Positions 5,861 to 31,199 of a stretch of DNA of 36,859 nucleotides are shown here, piece after piece. Below the pieces are notes generated by a model, which saw only the letters and a program-made list of their open reading frames with translations, made no database searches and had not been told where the DNA came from. Numbering within the stretch: position 1 is the first letter of the stretch; each line of letters starts with the position of its first letter. The translations under genes were made by a program, and so were the position numbers. This DNA is from a virus: the IMG/VR virus record IMGVR_UViG_3300017755_000021, positions 1 through 36,859 of that record. The stretch is one strand, 5' to 3'.

Positions 5861-6984
5861 TAAAAGCCTTCTGTTATTTTCTGTTTGGTCATTACCTCTG
5901 TCTCACTAAACGTCAATGTCATTTTTGTAAGTGTAGGAAATGCACCTCTATCATCAGCAGAAAATGTAGTAAATACACCTTCTGGTGATTGGTCAACTTC
6001 CATAGTCTTTAACACGCATCTACTGATCTTTGGTATATAACCATTTAGTTTATCCATATACATATATGTCAACTGAAATTCTGATGGTACTCTAAAGTAA
6101 TCAGATCCAGCTAATGTTTCTGGTTGCATATGAAATTTAAATAGTTTGATAATTTTATCTACATTATCTAATTCTGTTTGATTTTTAGGTGCAAATTCAA
6201 ATGTGAAATTAAACTCTCTCATTGGTACACTCTTAAACACCATTTCCATATTAGGATTTCTAGCTCTACCTAATGACTTGTCAATAACAGCATTTAGATC
6301 ACCAACGCCTGGTATCAATGTCAATGCTGTATTCAATGCATCTTTTAATAGATCACCACTTATACTCCCCACAGTATCCAACATACCTGAAAATCCCTGT
6401 TGTACAGCAAATCCTGCTTTACCTGTTTCTACCTGATCGTAATTGGCAGCATAGGTTGTCTTTACTTGTGGTGGAGTATAAAGTATTATAGAATCTGTAA
6501 CGTGATTGTGTGTGTTGTTTCTTTTGTTAATTCCTGTGTTGACTTTGGTTAATCTGTTTAATACACCTCTGTCCTTAAAATTCTTAGCAGTACTGTTTCC
6601 TTTTTCACCTACAATATCACCTGTTAGATCACTGCCTAGATTAGGTGACTTGATATAATTACCATTTTGAAATGTACCACTTTTGAATTGTGAATGCTTT
6701 AACATTATTATATCAAATATCATATAGTGCCCAGCACCTAAATTTGATATTTCTGTTGGGTAATAAACTGTACCATATTCATATGGGTTTTGTTTGATTA
6801 CTGCTGTAGGTGTATCATCACTTATTTCCAGTGGTGATTTATTTAACAATTTAGCCGCAGCTAGATTTGTTTGTGCATTGTTCTTAGCGCCATCTATAAA
6901 ACCAGATATACTTGATGAGAAACCACCTACTAGATTTGATAGATTAGACTTGACAACGCTTGAAATTTTACTTTTAAAATTCAT
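5860..6984 (-). CDS. 48: Baseplate tail-tube cap protein gp48
   Basis: 374 aa, close to T4 gp48 (364 aa). In T4, gp48 and gp54 cap the hub and start tube polymerisation. The C-terminal half has the tube-like fold signature: MEMVFKSVPMREFNFTFEFAPKNQ at about 244-267, then IIKLFKFHMQPE and SEFQLTYMY. The N-terminus is variable, Gly/Ser/Asn-rich. Start ATG 6984 has AAGGAT as ribosome binding site and its own TATAAATA promoter that overlaps the divergent gp4 promoter. Confidence 0.82.
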   Translation of the reverse strand: MNFKSKISSVVKSNLSNLVGGFSSSISGFIDGAKNNAQTNLAAAKLLNKSPLEISDDTPTAVIKQNPYEYGTVYYPTEISNLGAGHYMIFDIIMLKHSQFKSGTFQNGNYIKSPNLGSDLTGDIVGEKGNSTAKNFKDRGVLNRLTKVNTGINKRNNTHNHVTDSIILYTPPQVKTTYAANYDQVETGKAGFAVQQGFSGMLDTVGSISGDLLKDALNTALTLIPGVGDLNAVIDKSLGRARNPNMEMVFKSVPMREFNFTFEFAPKNQTELDNVDKIIKLFKFHMQPETLAGSDYFRVPSEFQLTYMYMDKLNGYIPKISRCVLKTMEVDQSPEGVFTTFSADDRGAFPTLTKMTLTFSETEVMTKQKITEGF

Positions 6985-6985
6985 A

Positions 6986-7014
6986 GATAAATATCCTTAC
7001 AGAGTATATTTATA
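6986..7014. promoter_or_regulatory. Back-to-back late promoters for gp48 (-) and gp4 (+)
   Basis: Within 29 bases there are two late boxes facing apart: TATAAATA on minus at 7014-7007 (for gp48) and GATAAATA on plus at 6986-6993 (for gp4). The minus box overlaps the first base of the gp4 start codon, so the two promoters physically overlap and may compete. GATAAATA fits the NATAAATA form I recall for marine T4-like phages. Confidence 0.6.
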
Positions 7015-7454
7015 TGAAATACAGAAGAAGTTTTAAAGGTTTATATAGACCCACGCACCCAAAGAAATACATTGGTGATTCAAATAGAATAGTATATAGG
7101 TCATTATTAGAGAGAAGACTTATGGTTTATTTGGATAAAACTGATGATATTATTAGTTGGGCTAGTGAAGAAATGTCTGTAATTTATCGTTCACCTATTG
7201 ATAAGAAAAATCATAGATACTTTCCTGACTTTTTATGTAAGACTAAAAGTGGTGAAAAGTATATGATAGAAGTAAAACCATCACGTCAATGCAAGAAACC
7301 AAAAACGCCTAAACGTAAAACTAAAAGTTTTATGAGAGAGCAATTTGAGTGGATTAAAAATCAAGCCAAATGGCAAGCAGCAATGTCCTTTTGTGAAGAT
7401 AATAATATGAAATTTAAGATTATGACAGAGAAAGATTTAGGTGTTACTTTTTAA
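7014..7454 (+). CDS. 4: Head completion protein gp4 (nuclease-like fold)
   Basis: The only gene on the plus strand. The 146-aa product has RSLLERRLMVYLDKTDDIISWASEEM, then IPYxx-type strand (VIYRSP), HRYFPDF and YMIEVKPS, i.e. the D...ExK-like arrangement (D near 69, EVK near 87-89) shared by gp4 head-completion proteins and TnsA-type endonucleases. In T4, gp4 (with gp50) finishes the filled head before tail joining. It is flanked by minus-strand tail genes with convergent overlap of 4 bases with the 503-aa gene. Confidence 0.85.
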   Translation: MKYRRSFKGLYRPTHPKKYIGDSNRIVYRSLLERRLMVYLDKTDDIISWASEEMSVIYRSPIDKKNHRYFPDFLCKTKSGEKYMIEVKPSRQCKKPKTPKRKTKSFMREQFEWIKNQAKWQAAMSFCEDNNMKFKIMTEKDLGVTF

Positions 7455-8962
7455 ACTTCTAAACCACCATTTAATATATTAAATGTTCTATCGTTATTGT
7501 GTGGTGAATTAGCCACCATTGTTTCTGATTTACTTGAATTGATTACATTGTTAGGTGCTATGTTTGTAAGTATTGTTTCCATAGACTTTTGTGCATCACC
7601 TTCAGGTACCATATATTTTAGATTTTGTGGTTGTAAATCCATTGTAGAACTGATAGGTTTAAATCCTGGTTTATATTCACCTTTTATAAAATCATAGTTT
7701 TCTGAGTTTCTAATTGTAGCGTCACCATCTTGGTTCTTTATTCTTTCATTCTTTTGAAACTCTGAACTGATTGTTGGTGCATTACCATCATCAAATGCGT
7801 CCATAGGCATTTCTGAATTAGTAAATTTTTCTGCTTCTGCTAACTTCTCTGCCTTCTCTTTTGGTGTTTCATCTCCTCCACCTATAAGACTAAATGGCCA
7901 TATTGATTTTAACTTCTTAAACAAAGCAATAACACCTACAATAGCAGCAGTGATACCTATAAATGCTATAATGATAGGTAATAATGTTCTACTCATAAAT
8001 GCAAATATCTTTGTCAAACTTCCTAATGGTTTGAATAAACCTGCAAATGATCTACCCAACATCATAGTTTGATCTTTTAATTGATTGAATGCTTCCATTG
8101 GCGCCATCAATGTTTGTCCAAACGTTGCAGTGATTGGTCTTAATATCTCTGGTCCAGATTCACCTCTTAAAAATCTACCTGCGCCTTGAAGAATTCCACC
8201 ACGTTCATCACCCTCGCCTTGTTGACCTGTTAAATCTTGTCGTCTTTCTTCTAAAAGCTCTTTGCTTTCTGTTATCTTCTCTTGTTTAGAGATGATACTT
8301 TCTGACTGTCTCTTTGTCAGTTTTTCTTCTCTTAATAGTTTTTCTCTATCTTTTATAAACTGTTTCTCTACATCTCGTTGTAATTTCTCATCTCTCTCAA
8401 GCTTTTTAACTTCTTCTTTGTATTGTCTATTAGTCAATACTCTGATTTCTAATTCTTTCTTTTGTTGATTTTCAACAACTTTGGTTTGTATACCTTTTTC
8501 TCTTAATATTTCTCGTTCTTTGTTAACAGCTAATATGTTTTCTTTTCTTGCCTCAAATGCTTTTCTTAATCTATCAAAATTATTACCTAGTCGTTGACTA
8601 AATTGAAATAGATTTATACCAGTCTTATCTACTATTTTTTGTAATCTGTCAAGTGCATTTTCGTAATTCTTGTCAGAACCTTTAGCAAAGGTTTCAGATA
8701 TTTCTTGTAACTCATTTGTAATATTAGGTATAGCAGATAACATTGATGTAGATACTGTCTTCTCAGCTGCAGCAGTTATAGATGTGCCTATACTTGTAAA
8801 ATATTTACCTAAATCTAAATCAGATATTTTAGCATTTAATGCATCACGGAATGTTTTAAAAAACTCTTTTTTCTGTTCTTCATCCATTACGTTCTTAGCA
8901 TTAACCTGTTCCGGTTGTACCGTAACTTCTAAATCTTTATCTAAATCTGAAACCTTAGCCAT
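7451..8962 (-). CDS. Tape-measure-like / hub coiled-coil protein (gp29 position)
   Basis: 503 aa. Residues about 155-245 are a very charged coiled coil (Lys/Glu/Arg heptads), followed by a Gly-rich linker and one strong hydrophobic segment (about 325-350: LLPIIIAFIGITAAIVGVIALF). Long helical proteins with a membrane segment between gp26 and gp48 correspond in position to T4 gp29, the tape measure/hub protein. The preceding gp26 gene has a frameshift signal, as genes just upstream of tape measures often do. Assignment is by position and architecture, not by a recognised motif. Confidence 0.6.
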   Translation of the reverse strand: MAKVSDLDKDLEVTVQPEQVNAKNVMDEEQKKEFFKTFRDALNAKISDLDLGKYFTSIGTSITAAAEKTVSTSMLSAIPNITNELQEISETFAKGSDKNYENALDRLQKIVDKTGINLFQFSQRLGNNFDRLRKAFEARKENILAVNKEREILREKGIQTKVVENQQKKELEIRVLTNRQYKEEVKKLERDEKLQRDVEKQFIKDREKLLREEKLTKRQSESIISKQEKITESKELLEERRQDLTGQQGEGDERGGILQGAGRFLRGESGPEILRPITATFGQTLMAPMEAFNQLKDQTMMLGRSFAGLFKPLGSLTKIFAFMSRTLLPIIIAFIGITAAIVGVIALFKKLKSIWPFSLIGGGDETPKEKAEKLAEAEKFTNSEMPMDAFDDGNAPTISSEFQKNERIKNQDGDATIRNSENYDFIKGEYKPGFKPISSTMDLQPQNLKYMVPEGDAQKSMETILTNIAPNNVINSSKSETMVANSPHNNDRTFNILNGGLEV

Positions 8963-8965
8963 TTA

Positions 8966-9268
8966 TTAATCTTTGTTTTTAACTTTTGATGGTTTACCAT
9001 TAACATATATTGCAAACCAACCAGCGCCTGCGCCAACTACTACTGACACTAACCCTGCTTGTGCGTTGTTAGGATTCTCTAACATCATAAACCAATTGAT
9101 TACATCTAAAAATGCCCAAGCATAAGCGACCATTAATAGACGTGGTACTAATCTCCAGTTTGACATCAATTCAGGTATCTCTACCTCAATAAAGTGCCAT
9201 AATTGTTTTATACCATATTTTATACCAGACCAACCTGATCCGAATAAGTTTTTAATTCTTTGTATCAT
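8966..9268 (-). CDS. Small membrane protein, holin-like
   Basis: 100 aa with two probable membrane helices (about 43-60 VPRLLMVAYAWAFLDVINWF and 71-90 AGLVSVVVGAGAGWFAIYVN) and a basic C-terminus. This layout resembles small holins of marine phages, but a baseplate role is possible because it lies inside the tail operon. ATG 9268 overlaps, as ATGA, the stop of the frameshift extension of gp26; AGAAGGA is the ribosome binding site. Confidence 0.7.
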   Translation of the reverse strand: MIQRIKNLFGSGWSGIKYGIKQLWHFIEVEIPELMSNWRLVPRLLMVAYAWAFLDVINWFMMLENPNNAQAGLVSVVVGAGAGWFAIYVNGKPSKVKNKD

Positions 9269-10160
9269 TTATTAGCGTTCCTTCTCTTTTCGTTTTCTTC
9301 TTTTATATAATTTATTAACATATTGACATATATGTCCCTTTCCCAAGGTATCATATTCTCAAGCTCGCTTAAACTATATTTATGATGTTGCACAAGGGCA
9401 AAATTGGTTTCAAATATGGCCTCTAGGGAATTGTGTGAGAGGCTTACCCGAAAAAATCTTGTAACCCTTGCAGGGTCACTGTACTCTTTACCTTTGTGTT
9501 AGGATTTTCTACCTCTATCACTTGTTTTAATTTTGGCATTGTATCAAAAAATTTCTTTATTTTTACAAAACTATCCTGTGTCATAGTTTCAACAAATTCT
9601 TTGATTTCTTCTGGTGTAGTATCTTTTGCTGGGTATATCTTATCGCCTTCAAATATATGGTCCACACAATCTATCAACACTGTAAATACGTTATCTACAT
9701 CATTTGTGTTAATGTCTTTCCCTACTGTGTAATTCTTAAGCGTTGGATATCTCAACACCATACCTAGTTTTCTACTTTCGTCTACCACAATTTTATTTGT
9801 GTGGTTTTCTTCCACATGCACTTCTACTTTAGATAAGTCAACTTTTACATCTGCATATGTTTTATTGTCATCTGGACAAATAACCTTGAAATCAGCAACT
9901 TCACCCACAGATTTGGCACGAATATTTAAAAACAAATATTCTATATCAAATAAAGGTAAACTGTCTACGTTCAATGTGTTAAATGTACAAGCGTTTATGA
10001 TCTCTTTTACTGCATTGACCATCTCTGCATTGTTTTTGGATTCCATTGCAACAAATAAAATTTTTTCTTCTTTGACTAAAAAAGGTCTAAACTTAACTTT
10101 TTTATCTTCAGAAGGTAATGTCAATTCATAAGTTGGCACATCCACTTTTGGTAATGTCAT
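9265..10160 (-). CDS. gp26 -1 frameshift fusion (298 aa)
   Basis: Predicted longer product: 237 residues of gp26, then a -1 shift at T TTT TTC (9456-9450) into a 61-codon open frame ending TGA 9267-9265. The extension reads like a folded domain (SLEAIFETNFALVQHHKYSL, then MIPWERDIYVNMLINYIK) yet has no usable start of its own at its beginning; its stop overlaps the next gene as ATGA. Paired short and shifted proteins made just before the tape measure gene are a known theme in tailed phages (lambda G and GT). Application to this gp26 is my inference. Confidence 0.7.
9419..9470 (-). promoter_or_regulatory. -1 programmed ribosomal frameshift signal
   Basis: Three standard elements in order on the minus strand: a Shine-Dalgarno-like AAGGG about 8 nt upstream; the heptamer T TTT TTC (9456-9450) in the gp26 zero frame; a 6-nt spacer containing the gp26 stop; and a perfect 6-bp stem GCCTCT/AGAGGC (9443-9438 with 9424-9419) with a 13-nt loop. 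Confidence 0.75.
9444..10160 (-). CDS. 26: Baseplate hub assembly protein gp26-type (zero-frame product)
   Basis: 238 aa of the T4_baseplate family (gp26/gp51 type): starts MTLPKVDVPTYELTLPSE, then KFRPFLVKEEKILFVAME, SLPLFDIEYLFLNIRAKSVGE and the ending TVTLQGLQDFFG. It is needed for hub assembly in T4. The zero-frame stop comes two codons after a slippery T TTT TTC; a -1 shift would add 61 residues (see separate entry). Confidence 0.82.
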   Translation of the reverse strand: MTLPKVDVPTYELTLPSEDKKVKFRPFLVKEEKILFVAMESKNNAEMVNAVKEIINACTFNTLNVDSLPLFDIEYLFLNIRAKSVGEVADFKVICPDDNKTYADVKVDLSKVEVHVEENHTNKIVVDESRKLGMVLRYPTLKNYTVGKDINTNDVDNVFTVLIDCVDHIFEGDKIYPAKDTTPEEIKEFVETMTQDSFVKIKKFFDTMPKLKQVIEVENPNTKVKSTVTLQGLQDFFG

Positions 10161-10172
10161 TATAACTCCTTA

Positions 10173-11159
10173 TTATATATTTAGAGGTGGGAAGTTAGGG
10201 AATGGTGGAAATACTCTTCCACCAGTAATGCCACCAATAGGTAATCTTCGTTTGATACCTTGTAACACTTCTGTTCCAGCTCTTCTTAACTCTGGTGGTA
10301 GTTTACCGAGTAAACCACCAAAAGGACCACCACCACTTTTCACTGTTACATCTCTAAAGTTTGGTGTTCCTAATTCTACTTGTCCTGCTTTATCAATAAA
10401 GTAATTAACCCAATTTCTATATTCAAACGATACACTAAAAGTTTGTATCTCGTTTGCCGTATGAGCATAATCTACTTTACTAACAATTTTAGGAAAACAA
10501 TCAAACAATTTAACTCCATAGGTTACATCATCTCTTTCGTTTCTACTCTCAAAACTACCTAACTGAAATATATTCATATCAGATACATAATTGTCATAGA
10601 AATTAAAGTTATGTGTAGTATTACTGTATGCAGCATTCTGCCACATCTCAAAATAACTACGTTCTCTCATAAACTTATCTGCATAAAACGTGGCATCTAT
10701 ACTTGTTGCCTTGTAGTCATATGCAAATCTTCTTGGAGGACCATTGTGTTTGATTTCTTTGGTCTGAATTTCTTTCTCTGGCATAGATATAGAATTACAA
10801 AATGCTTGTACTCGTCTAGCATTAGCCATTTGTACAGCATTCATCTCGCCTTGTTGTTTGAATGCCATTTGTTGTTCTACAGATGTACCACTTACTTCAT
10901 TGTTCTCATCACCAGCATTTACACCTGTTATTGGAATACTTTTTGGTAAGTAAAACTCAACATAATATCTTGCCTTACGTGCAAATCCCTCACTCTCATT
11001 AACCATAGCTTGAAATCTACCCATTGTAGTTTCAGGATTACCACCAGCTCGTTGTTTAAATCGTGCATCGTTATTGACATTATCTAAGCTTCTATCTCTA
11101 GGTAAACCTATTCTAATATCAAAACCACCAATTCTTTTACCACCTCTTAATATTGCCAT
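10173..11159 (-). CDS. 54: Baseplate tail-tube initiator gp54
   Basis: 328 aa (T4 gp54 is 320 aa). It contains tube-protein-like sequence at residues about 151-205: IDATFYADKFMRERSYFEMW, then NFNFYDNY and NIFQL, followed by FSVSFEYRNWVNYFID. In T4, gp54 sits on gp48 and primes polymerisation of the gp19 tube. The C-terminus is Gly/Pro-rich and ends PPFPNFPPLNI. It overlaps the preceding 185-aa gene by one base. Confidence 0.75.
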   Translation of the reverse strand: MAILRGGKRIGGFDIRIGLPRDRSLDNVNNDARFKQRAGGNPETTMGRFQAMVNESEGFARKARYYVEFYLPKSIPITGVNAGDENNEVSGTSVEQQMAFKQQGEMNAVQMANARRVQAFCNSISMPEKEIQTKEIKHNGPPRRFAYDYKATSIDATFYADKFMRERSYFEMWQNAAYSNTTHNFNFYDNYVSDMNIFQLGSFESRNERDDVTYGVKLFDCFPKIVSKVDYAHTANEIQTFSVSFEYRNWVNYFIDKAGQVELGTPNFRDVTVKSGGGPFGGLLGKLPPELRRAGTEVLQGIKRRLPIGGITGGRVFPPFPNFPPLNI

Positions 11160-29826: not shown

Positions 29827-29967
29827 TTAATTTACCTCACTTTTTATATTATATACTAGGTCTTGCATTTTGTCAAGTCCTAAAGATATATAGTCTAAAA
29901 ACTCAGAACCCGATATACCCGTAACAATTACAAAAACTAGTGAGATTATGATTAAATTTTTAATCAT
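29827..29967 (-). CDS. Small secreted/membrane peptide (46 aa)
   Basis: ATG 29967 overlaps the upstream stop (ATGA) and has GGGAGGTAAA as strong ribosome binding site. N-terminal hydrophobic segment (IIISLVFVIVTGISG), then FLDYISLGLDKMQDLVYN. Likely membrane-anchored. A sigma70 promoter lies inside its reading frame. Confidence 0.72.
   Translation of the reverse strand: MIKNLIIISLVFVIVTGISGSEFLDYISLGLDKMQDLVYNIKSEVN
29848..29876 (-). promoter_or_regulatory. Consensus sigma70 promoter for the lipoprotein unit
   Basis: Minus strand: TTGACA (29876-29871), 17 bp, TATAAT (29853-29848), inside the end of the 46-aa gene. The leader contains GTGAGGT before the lipoprotein start. Confidence 0.8.
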
Positions 29968-30440
29968 TTTACCTCCCATTCACCGTTCTGTTGTAAACAC
30001 ACTTTTCCGAACGACTTAAAAGCGTGATTTGGTCTACTGTACATTCTACAGTATTCAGGTGTTGCTACATCTCTATAATAAAATTGAGCAAATAGCTGCC
30101 AATATGAAGGACCATCTACAGTTTTTCTTCCATCAGCACACTCTAAAATTTCTTCTTTAATAATTGTATTATCAGTTTCTTTTATAATCACTTTTACATA
30201 ACAATATTGATCTGCTGCGTCTTTAGGTTCAACAGTTGTAATTTTGTTATAATAAACTTTATCGCCGTCTTTTTCAATTTTTTCTATTTTATCTAATATC
30301 TCTATTACTTTTACATTCTCAACAGGATATGTCTTCTCTGACAAGTCACCATTTTCATTACCAAATACATATGTACATATTAGTATTGCAAAAATTGTGT
30401 ACATCATTAGAGTTAAATATTTTCTAGGATCAAATGGCAT
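29964..30440 (-). CDS. Membrane-anchored periplasmic protein (158 aa)
   Basis: Start set at ATG 30440, overlapping the preceding stop as TAATG; a longer frame to 30479 is less likely. One N-terminal membrane segment (YLTLMMYTIFAILICTYVF), then a beta-rich domain with four Cys. The ending GKVCLQQNGEWEVK resembles the end of the preceding lipoprotein (ACQMPDGRWVEKN), suggesting related C-terminal folds. Confidence 0.72.
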   Translation of the reverse strand: MPFDPRKYLTLMMYTIFAILICTYVFGNENGDLSEKTYPVENVKVIEILDKIEKIEKDGDKVYYNKITTVEPKDAADQYCYVKVIIKETDNTIIKEEILECADGRKTVDGPSYWQLFAQFYYRDVATPEYCRMYSRPNHAFKSFGKVCLQQNGEWEVK

Positions 30441-30916
30441 TAGTTTTTTTCTACCCATCTGCCATCTGGCATTTGACACGCAGTACCAAAGTTTACTTTT
30501 CTATTGATACCTCCAATACCTATTAAAGGCCATTGGTTTGTTATGTCAACAGTTGATTCATAATCTTTACATTTAATTGTTTCAACCATATATGTACTTG
30601 TAGTTTTTATAATTCCACTATTACCTGTATTTGTATTGTACCAATTAGTGTATGTAGAACCATTAGGACTTTTGTTCATATGGTCAACAAACATTGCATT
30701 GTGTACATCAGCATCTGACTTGTACATAATATCAGCACCAACAAATGCACCAGTCACAGCACACGCAGCGATGGCATAAGGATTTTCTACTCCCAAAGCG
30801 ACACACGAGCCAGTTGTAGTCGTGGCACCAAGAGTGGCACCAATGTGACTACGATTACTGGCTGCGCAGTTATTTAACAACAAGAGAGCAATTAAACTTA
30901 ATAATATTTTATGCAT
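30440..30916 (-). CDS. Surface-antigen-like lipoprotein (17 kDa antigen style)
   Basis: 158 aa from ATG 30916. Signal peptide with LLLLNNCAAS (lipidated Cys18, lipobox atypical), then a Gly-rich segment (HIGATLGATTTTGSC, VTGAFVGADIMY) like the glycine zipper of 17-kDa surface antigens, and the terminal ACQMPDGRWVEKN. Such proteins are widespread in alphaproteobacteria, so acquisition from a host is plausible. Confidence 0.7.
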   Translation of the reverse strand: MHKILLSLIALLLLNNCAASNRSHIGATLGATTTTGSCVALGVENPYAIAACAVTGAFVGADIMYKSDADVHNAMFVDHMNKSPNGSTYTNWYNTNTGNSGIIKTTSTYMVETIKCKDYESTVDITNQWPLIGIGGINRKVNFGTACQMPDGRWVEKN

Positions 30917-31199
30917 ATGTTTTATTGTAGTCTGTCCAGTATTCATTATAACTTTTTCCAAAACCGATTTGATAAAATGTATCTAAAGGGTTAACTGTTT
31001 GATAAACACTCAATAGTTTATCAAAGTTAACATCAACATTTTCATATGACTTTGGATTTTCTTCTTTATTCTTAATATGATCTTTAAAAAAGTTGATACG
31101 ATTTTCATAACATACTTTTCTAGTTGTAGATTTTTTCTTATCTTTCTTTTTCTCTATATCAAACTCAACGAATAGTAACTCTTTTGTATATTGAAACAT
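30909..31199 (-). CDS. Unknown 96-aa protein
   Basis: MFQYTKELLFVEFDIEKKKD start, Lys-rich centre and FYQIGFGKSYNEYWTDYNK near the end. GGAGGA ribosome binding site 6 nt before ATG 31199. Overlaps the lipoprotein gene by 8 bases. No family recognised. Confidence 0.7.
   Translation of the reverse strand: MFQYTKELLFVEFDIEKKKDKKKSTTRKVCYENRINFFKDHIKNKEENPKSYENVDVNFDKLLSVYQTVNPLDTFYQIGFGKSYNEYWTDYNKTYA

Follow-up and report, generated by a model that had tools for sequence, protein, structure and literature searches.

The gp26 gene of an uncultured marine virus and the open -1 frame that follows it very probably (at a probability of roughly 0.93) encode a tail assembly chaperone pair, in which a short form, gp26, and a long form, gp26-51, would be made by ribosomal slippage. 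This reading draws on sequence comparison, structure prediction and analogy with other phages. In the proposed mechanism, most ribosomes would finish gp26 (TAC-N) and a minority would slip back by one base on T TTT TTC, aided by AAGGG upstream and by a GCCTCT/AGAGGC hairpin downstream. The slipped ribosomes would read into the gp51 frame to give gp26-51 (TAC-NC), a predicted fusion of 298 aa. If the pair works like lambda G/GT, the tape measure protein may be coated by many copies of gp26, with a few copies of gp26-51 recruiting tail tube subunits. We infer the occurrence and rate of slippage, the roles of the stimulators and the chaperone action from the features described below.

The gp26 junction and its gene neighbourhood

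The window, that is, the whole stretch of DNA that was analysed, is a 36.9-kb uncultured virus contig (IMG/VR IMGVR_UViG_3300017755_000021, positions 1 to 36,859). The order of its tail genes matches that of Pelagibacter phage Mosig EXVC030M, family Kyanoviridae, which on sequence grounds identifies the window as a marine T4-like phage. The features of the junction and of the surrounding genes are listed in Table 1.

Table 1. Features at the gp26 junction and in the adjoining tail genes of the window
Feature	Position	Strand	Evidence
Tail tube-like protein, upstream neighbour of gp26	10173..11159	-	phrog_45 E=4.4e-33; 42% identical to Mosig counterpart
gp26 (TAC-N, putative short chaperone form), 238 aa	9444..10160	-	PF12322 E=1.2e-63; phrog_150 E=5.8e-69
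AAGGG, putative Shine-Dalgarno-like upstream stimulator	9465..9469	-	8 nt ahead of heptamer
Slippery heptamer T TTT TTC, X_XXY_YYZ phase	9450..9456	-	sequence and conservation
Zero-frame stop TAA of gp26	9444..9446	-	sequence
Stem 5' arm GCCTCT	9438..9443	-	6 nt past heptamer
Stem 3' arm AGAGGC	9419..9424	-	pairs with GCCTCT
-1 frame extension, gp51 (putative TAC-C domain), 61 codons and TGA	9265..9450	-	phrog_634 E=8e-27
100-aa protein with hydrophobic segments, ATGA overlap with extension	8966..9268	-	phrog_10198; Mosig match
Tape-measure-like protein, 503 aa (gp29 position)	7451..8962	-	position, size, charged middle region, hydrophobic segment

On the minus strand, gp26 ends with ...CTG CAA GGG TTA CAA GAT TTT TTC GGG TAA. 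The stem that follows has 6 bp and a 13-nt loop. The -1 frame runs from the last base of the heptamer through 61 codons to a TGA at 9267-9265, where the ATG of the next gene overlaps it as ATGA. The first-pass annotation had described these elements from the letters, namely an in-phase heptamer at the end of gp26, an AAGGG about 8 nt upstream, a perfect 6-bp stem-loop 6 nt downstream and a 61-codon open -1 frame coupled to the next gene, and all of them are present. It had placed the heptamer two codons before the stop; the location near the stop was right and the distance was not, since the heptamer ends one codon (GGG) ahead. A random -1 frame at this place would stay open for 58 codons with a chance of ~0.01. 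A T-run heptamer within the last 15 codons combined with such an extension was found for gp26 alone among the window genes, and the other long -1 frames in the window are mostly the next gene. An Rfam search at the junction gave no match.

A second heptamer, A AAA AAC, precedes the stop of a lipoprotein-like ORF (30440-30961, minus strand). Frameshifting was rejected there, as the next ORF has its own ATG. This next ORF (29964-30479, minus strand) lies in -1 relative to the first and begins with that ATG in a TAATG overlap, and the A AAA AAC ahead of the stop of the first ORF is probably due to chance.

The overlapping ORF pair at the junction, with its second member in -1, lies upstream of the tape-measure-like gene, with one 100-aa ORF intervening. 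The product of this conserved ORF, which sits between the chaperone extension and the tape-measure-like gene, is 62% identical over 77 aa to Mosig_00135 of Pelagibacter phage Mosig EXVC030M. For the tape-measure-like ORF itself, profile searches (Pfam, PHROG) gave no convincing family match and BLASTP against its positional counterpart in Mosig showed no similarity; the label tape-measure-like is thus taken from position and features only. In Caulobacter phage Cr30, the gene that follows gp26, gp51 and the small ORF is annotated as tape measure. A head closure (gp4-like) gene (7014-7454, plus strand) lies between the tape-measure-like and tube-cap genes, and Mosig is arranged alike.

Conservation of the slippery site and the identity of the extension

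The first-pass annotation had proposed comparing the junction across marine T4-like relatives. We found 160 IMG/VR loci with gp26 or the extension. Together with the window itself, 153 of these (154 sequences) passed a first filter that required a T6 run, and T TTT TTC or T TTT TTT was present in 154/154 sequences from this T6-requiring filter. The loci outside the filter were checked singly; the six that could be scored (L069, L130-L133 and L150) all have T TTT TTT, and L099 ends at a contig edge. The heptamer, its phase and the extension thus recur in all scorable IMG/VR loci. The flanking segment was complete in 153 sequences, and clustering these at 85% nucleotide identity gave 71 clusters of uncultured marine relatives, in every one of which (71/71) T TTT TT(C/T) is kept. 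Ahead of the Phe pair stands a codon for Asp, Ser, Ala or Asn whose third base is nonetheless T in 71/71 clusters, and TTT is the only codon used for the first Phe (71/71). Given codon usage, the joint probability of this T and TTT is ~10^-21, and that of the third-base T in the 29 non-Asp clusters has a log10 P of about -8.4; in both calculations the related clusters are not fully independent.

The same junction was found in named phages of varied hosts, infecting Vibrio, Pseudomonas, Stenotrophomonas, Aeromonas, Rhizobium/Sinorhizobium, Agrobacterium, Acidovorax, Caulobacter, Synechococcus, Prochlorococcus and Pelagibacter. Among 18 such phages, T TTT TT(C/T) is present in 14 and T TTT TTG in two Rhizobium phages, so that T6 is kept in 16/18. 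The two Ackermannviridae, KpS110 and Kevin, have no T6 run and keep the -1 extension. Their gp26 ends read GAG ATT TTC or CAG GTT TTC in place of the T6 run.

The first-pass annotation had called the extension protein-like and free of a start of its own, and had suggested searching it against phage proteins. A profile search matched its residues 2-60 to phrog_634 (gp51, "baseplate hub assembly catalyst"), and this identity as gp51 is a point that the annotation had missed. In tblastn, the extension matched 604 phage records, mostly of cyanophages; no Pfam model matched it.

Comparison with T4 suggests how the two proteins are related. Residues 3-248 of T4 gp51 (249 aa) align end to end with positions 13-280 of 282 in phrog_150 (E=2.6e-84), and its C-terminal part matches phrog_634 (E=1.2e-23). 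T4 gp26 also matches phrog_150 (E=6.7e-71). On this evidence, T4 gp51 reads as a gp26-like domain followed by the same C-terminal extension. T4 genes 26 and 51 are adjacent, divergent and separate. T4 would thus have one gene for the short form and another for the long, and the window would make both from one gene with a frameshift. T4 gp51 is needed for assembly yet is missing from the particle (PMC3004832), which by analogy fits a chaperone role. gp51 has long been listed as essential for hub assembly without its function being understood, and it may now be read as the C-terminal portion of a chaperone for the tail.

Alternatively, gp51 could be a separate short protein, produced by termination-reinitiation or from its own start just past gp26, with the T run serving merely as a Phe-Phe motif. 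We consider this improbable. It is consistent with the many GenBank records, notably of cyanophages, in which gp51 is its own CDS. In a subset of cyanophage-like sequences the extension carries an ATG as its codon 3 or 4, and separate gp51 initiation or reinitiation would be possible in that subset. In the window, however, the -1 frame reaches its first ATG, GTG or TTG at extension codon 20 (a GTG) and its first ATG at codon 33, and both fall inside the conserved block of the extension. No start codon (ATG, GTG or TTG) was found near the junction in the extension frame of any window-clade sequence. A Phe-Phe motif alone also fails to explain an invariant preceding T across four amino acids, and T4-type gp51 has the gp26-like and C-terminal parts fused in one protein. 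Furthermore, cyanophage gp51 has been described as being without its first ~200 residues (Sullivan et al. 2010; PMC3037559), as a missed frameshift would give. Under ribosomal frameshifting, these missing N-terminal residues would be gp26, joined to gp51 by the slip, which would explain that remark.

Stem and upstream element

Across the window clade (35 clusters), the stem arms GCCTC and GAGGC hardly vary. The stem contains rare codons: Leu is encoded by CTC in 33/35 clusters, compared to 0.5% of Leu codons in gp26 of the same clade, and Leu CTA and Glu GAG are each found in 33 of the 35. In the 12 clusters where gp26 stops before the stem, CTC is kept in 10/12, CTA in 11/12 and GAG in 11/11 (binomial tails of 8.5e-22, 2e-9 and 9.5e-8, respectively). 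The codon signal persists where gp26 has already stopped, and therefore overlapping gp26 coding does not explain this signal. Pairing was found in 94.7% of cells compared to 20-60% in slid controls, and RNAalifold independently predicted five of the six stem pairs. Pair 6 is unpaired in 18/60 sequences, and one locus (L088) has a mismatch inside the stem. Nine loci, corresponding to 4/60 distinct sequences, have GCCTGT with (A/G)CAGGC, a C-G to G-C swap that preserves the pair. This compensatory change probably arose once and was then inherited, which makes the covariation support modest; codon choice is the stronger evidence.

gp26 occurs in two lengths, with its stop 3 nt or 24 nt past the heptamer (24 nt in L013, L019 and others). 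In the long version, translation in the zero frame would end at a TAG located at the stem's 3' arm.

The GCCTC/GAGGC stem was not found in the other, cyanophage-like clade, and the stem is therefore not needed everywhere. The conservation of the stem that the first-pass annotation had looked to relatives for thus holds within the clade of the window and fails in the cyanophage-like one. Upstream of the heptamer, codon choice favours anti-SD pairing in both (Wilcoxon p=1.8e-5 in the window clade and 5.1e-5 in the other clade). We lean towards a scenario in which the heptamer is ancestral to T4-like phages and the stimulators are lineage-specific, the window clade having gained a strongly selected hairpin, kept up by rare codons and a compensatory swap, that sets its own gp26:gp26-51 ratio and the cyanophage-like relatives leaning more on a GGAGG-like upstream element. 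The conserved hairpin could serve as a natural variant set for studying how -1 frameshifting is tuned by its stimulators.

These elements also bear on whether RNA polymerase, rather than the ribosome, might slip on the T run, to which we assign an even smaller chance than to a separately initiated gp51. The site has 6-8 T among relatives, and the 7 or 8 T in some of them would suit polymerase slippage; six T is the commonest form, however, and this is short for known transcriptional slippage. The X_XXY_YYZ phase, the downstream RNA stem and the SD-like codon choice are instead stimulators of the ribosomal kind. There is a negligible chance that gp51 is an in-frame fusion that decayed or was mis-sequenced: a single contig could carry an error in T-run length, which the first-pass annotation had named as a risk, but this is excluded because independent contigs carry the same site (eight of them at 92-100% identity in gp26), and the junction recurs in all scored contigs and in isolated phages.

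The fold of gp26 and known chaperone systems

In the search against PF12322, gp26 scored 215 bits, with a curated cut-off of 24.5. We modelled gp26 with AlphaFold2 from an alignment of 61 sequences (pLDDT 86.9). Residues 1-85 of the model align with HK97 gp13 (2OB9) and residues 5-95 with 3FGX, with a Z of 7.7 each; the next unrelated structural match has a Z of 2.6. 3FGX is also listed as a phage tail assembly chaperone (PMC9603447). The 2OB9 alignment covers 83 residues with an rmsd of 4.2 and 8% identity, and Foldseek alone ranked 2OB9 fourth, at an E of 1.6, without significance. With Z below 8 and one domain aligned, the model is supportive rather than conclusive of a TAC fold in the N-terminal domain of gp26. 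PDB sequence searches with gp26 and with the extension gave no match. The likeness to HK97 gp13 lies in this N-terminal domain, and gp26 differs in having ~150 further residues. The suggestion that gp26 is a tail assembly chaperone counterpart of the lambda G/GT kind, made from the sequence alone, is supported by the conserved slip site, the gp51 homology of an extension that lacks its own start, the gene position and the HK97-like N-terminal domain.

Lambda makes a minor long form by -1 slippage close to the 3' end of its short chaperone gene (gpG and gpGT; reviewed in PMC5009743). The window resembles this system in having a putative short chaperone gene just upstream of a tape-measure-like gene and a predicted -1 slip near the 3' end. 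It differs in that no sequence similarity to lambda G/GT was shown, that its slip site is T TTT TTC and that its C-domain is gp51. The pair in the window is homologous to T4 gp26 and gp51, whose divergent separate genes need no frameshift.

Frameshifting is reportedly conserved in several T4-like groups according to Vladimirov and colleagues, with T4 using genes 26 and 51. Their paper (Vladimirov, Gautam, Davidson 2022, Virology 566:9-15), as its title indicates, reported T4-like tail assembly chaperone genes, so the statement in the first-pass annotation that it knew of no such description for gp26 no longer stands. In passages citing that paper, T4-like TAC-N genes are stated to carry polyT slippery sequences (PMC12846349), and some T4-like phages to have one gene for the short form and another for the long (PMC10885494). 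Our interpretation is therefore right but, to judge from these citations, not new. The T4-like chaperones of Vladimirov et al. appear to belong to the same two gene families, with the same inferred TAC role, and the window is an uncultured marine relative. The cited passage on phage Adele (Vandenendeviridae/Andersonviridae) describes a similar -1 frameshift at a poly-T stretch at the end of TAC-N that routine annotation missed; its motif is GTTTTT and it comes from another family (PMC12846349). A literature search, which covered Vladimirov et al. 2022 through its title and citing papers, found no description of the GCCTC/GAGGC stem with its compensatory change. As far as could be checked from these sources, a frameshift-made T4-like chaperone pair was already reported, and the present lineage and the conserved stem are new. 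Judged from its sequence, the window is a well-supported further example of a frameshift-type T4-like tail assembly chaperone.

The frameshift would also be the reason why gp51 is mis-annotated or omitted in many database entries. In Mosig EXVC030M, the gp26 and gp51 frames share T TTT TTC in their overlap; the frameshift is missing from the record, which annotates gp51 as a separate short CDS starting past the junction (6058-6192 of our locus L163). The records of S-WAM1, CC2, ACP17 and KpS110 list no gp51 gene over the extension. In GenBank MN723850, gp26 and gp51 are both labelled as tape measure protein assembly chaperones.
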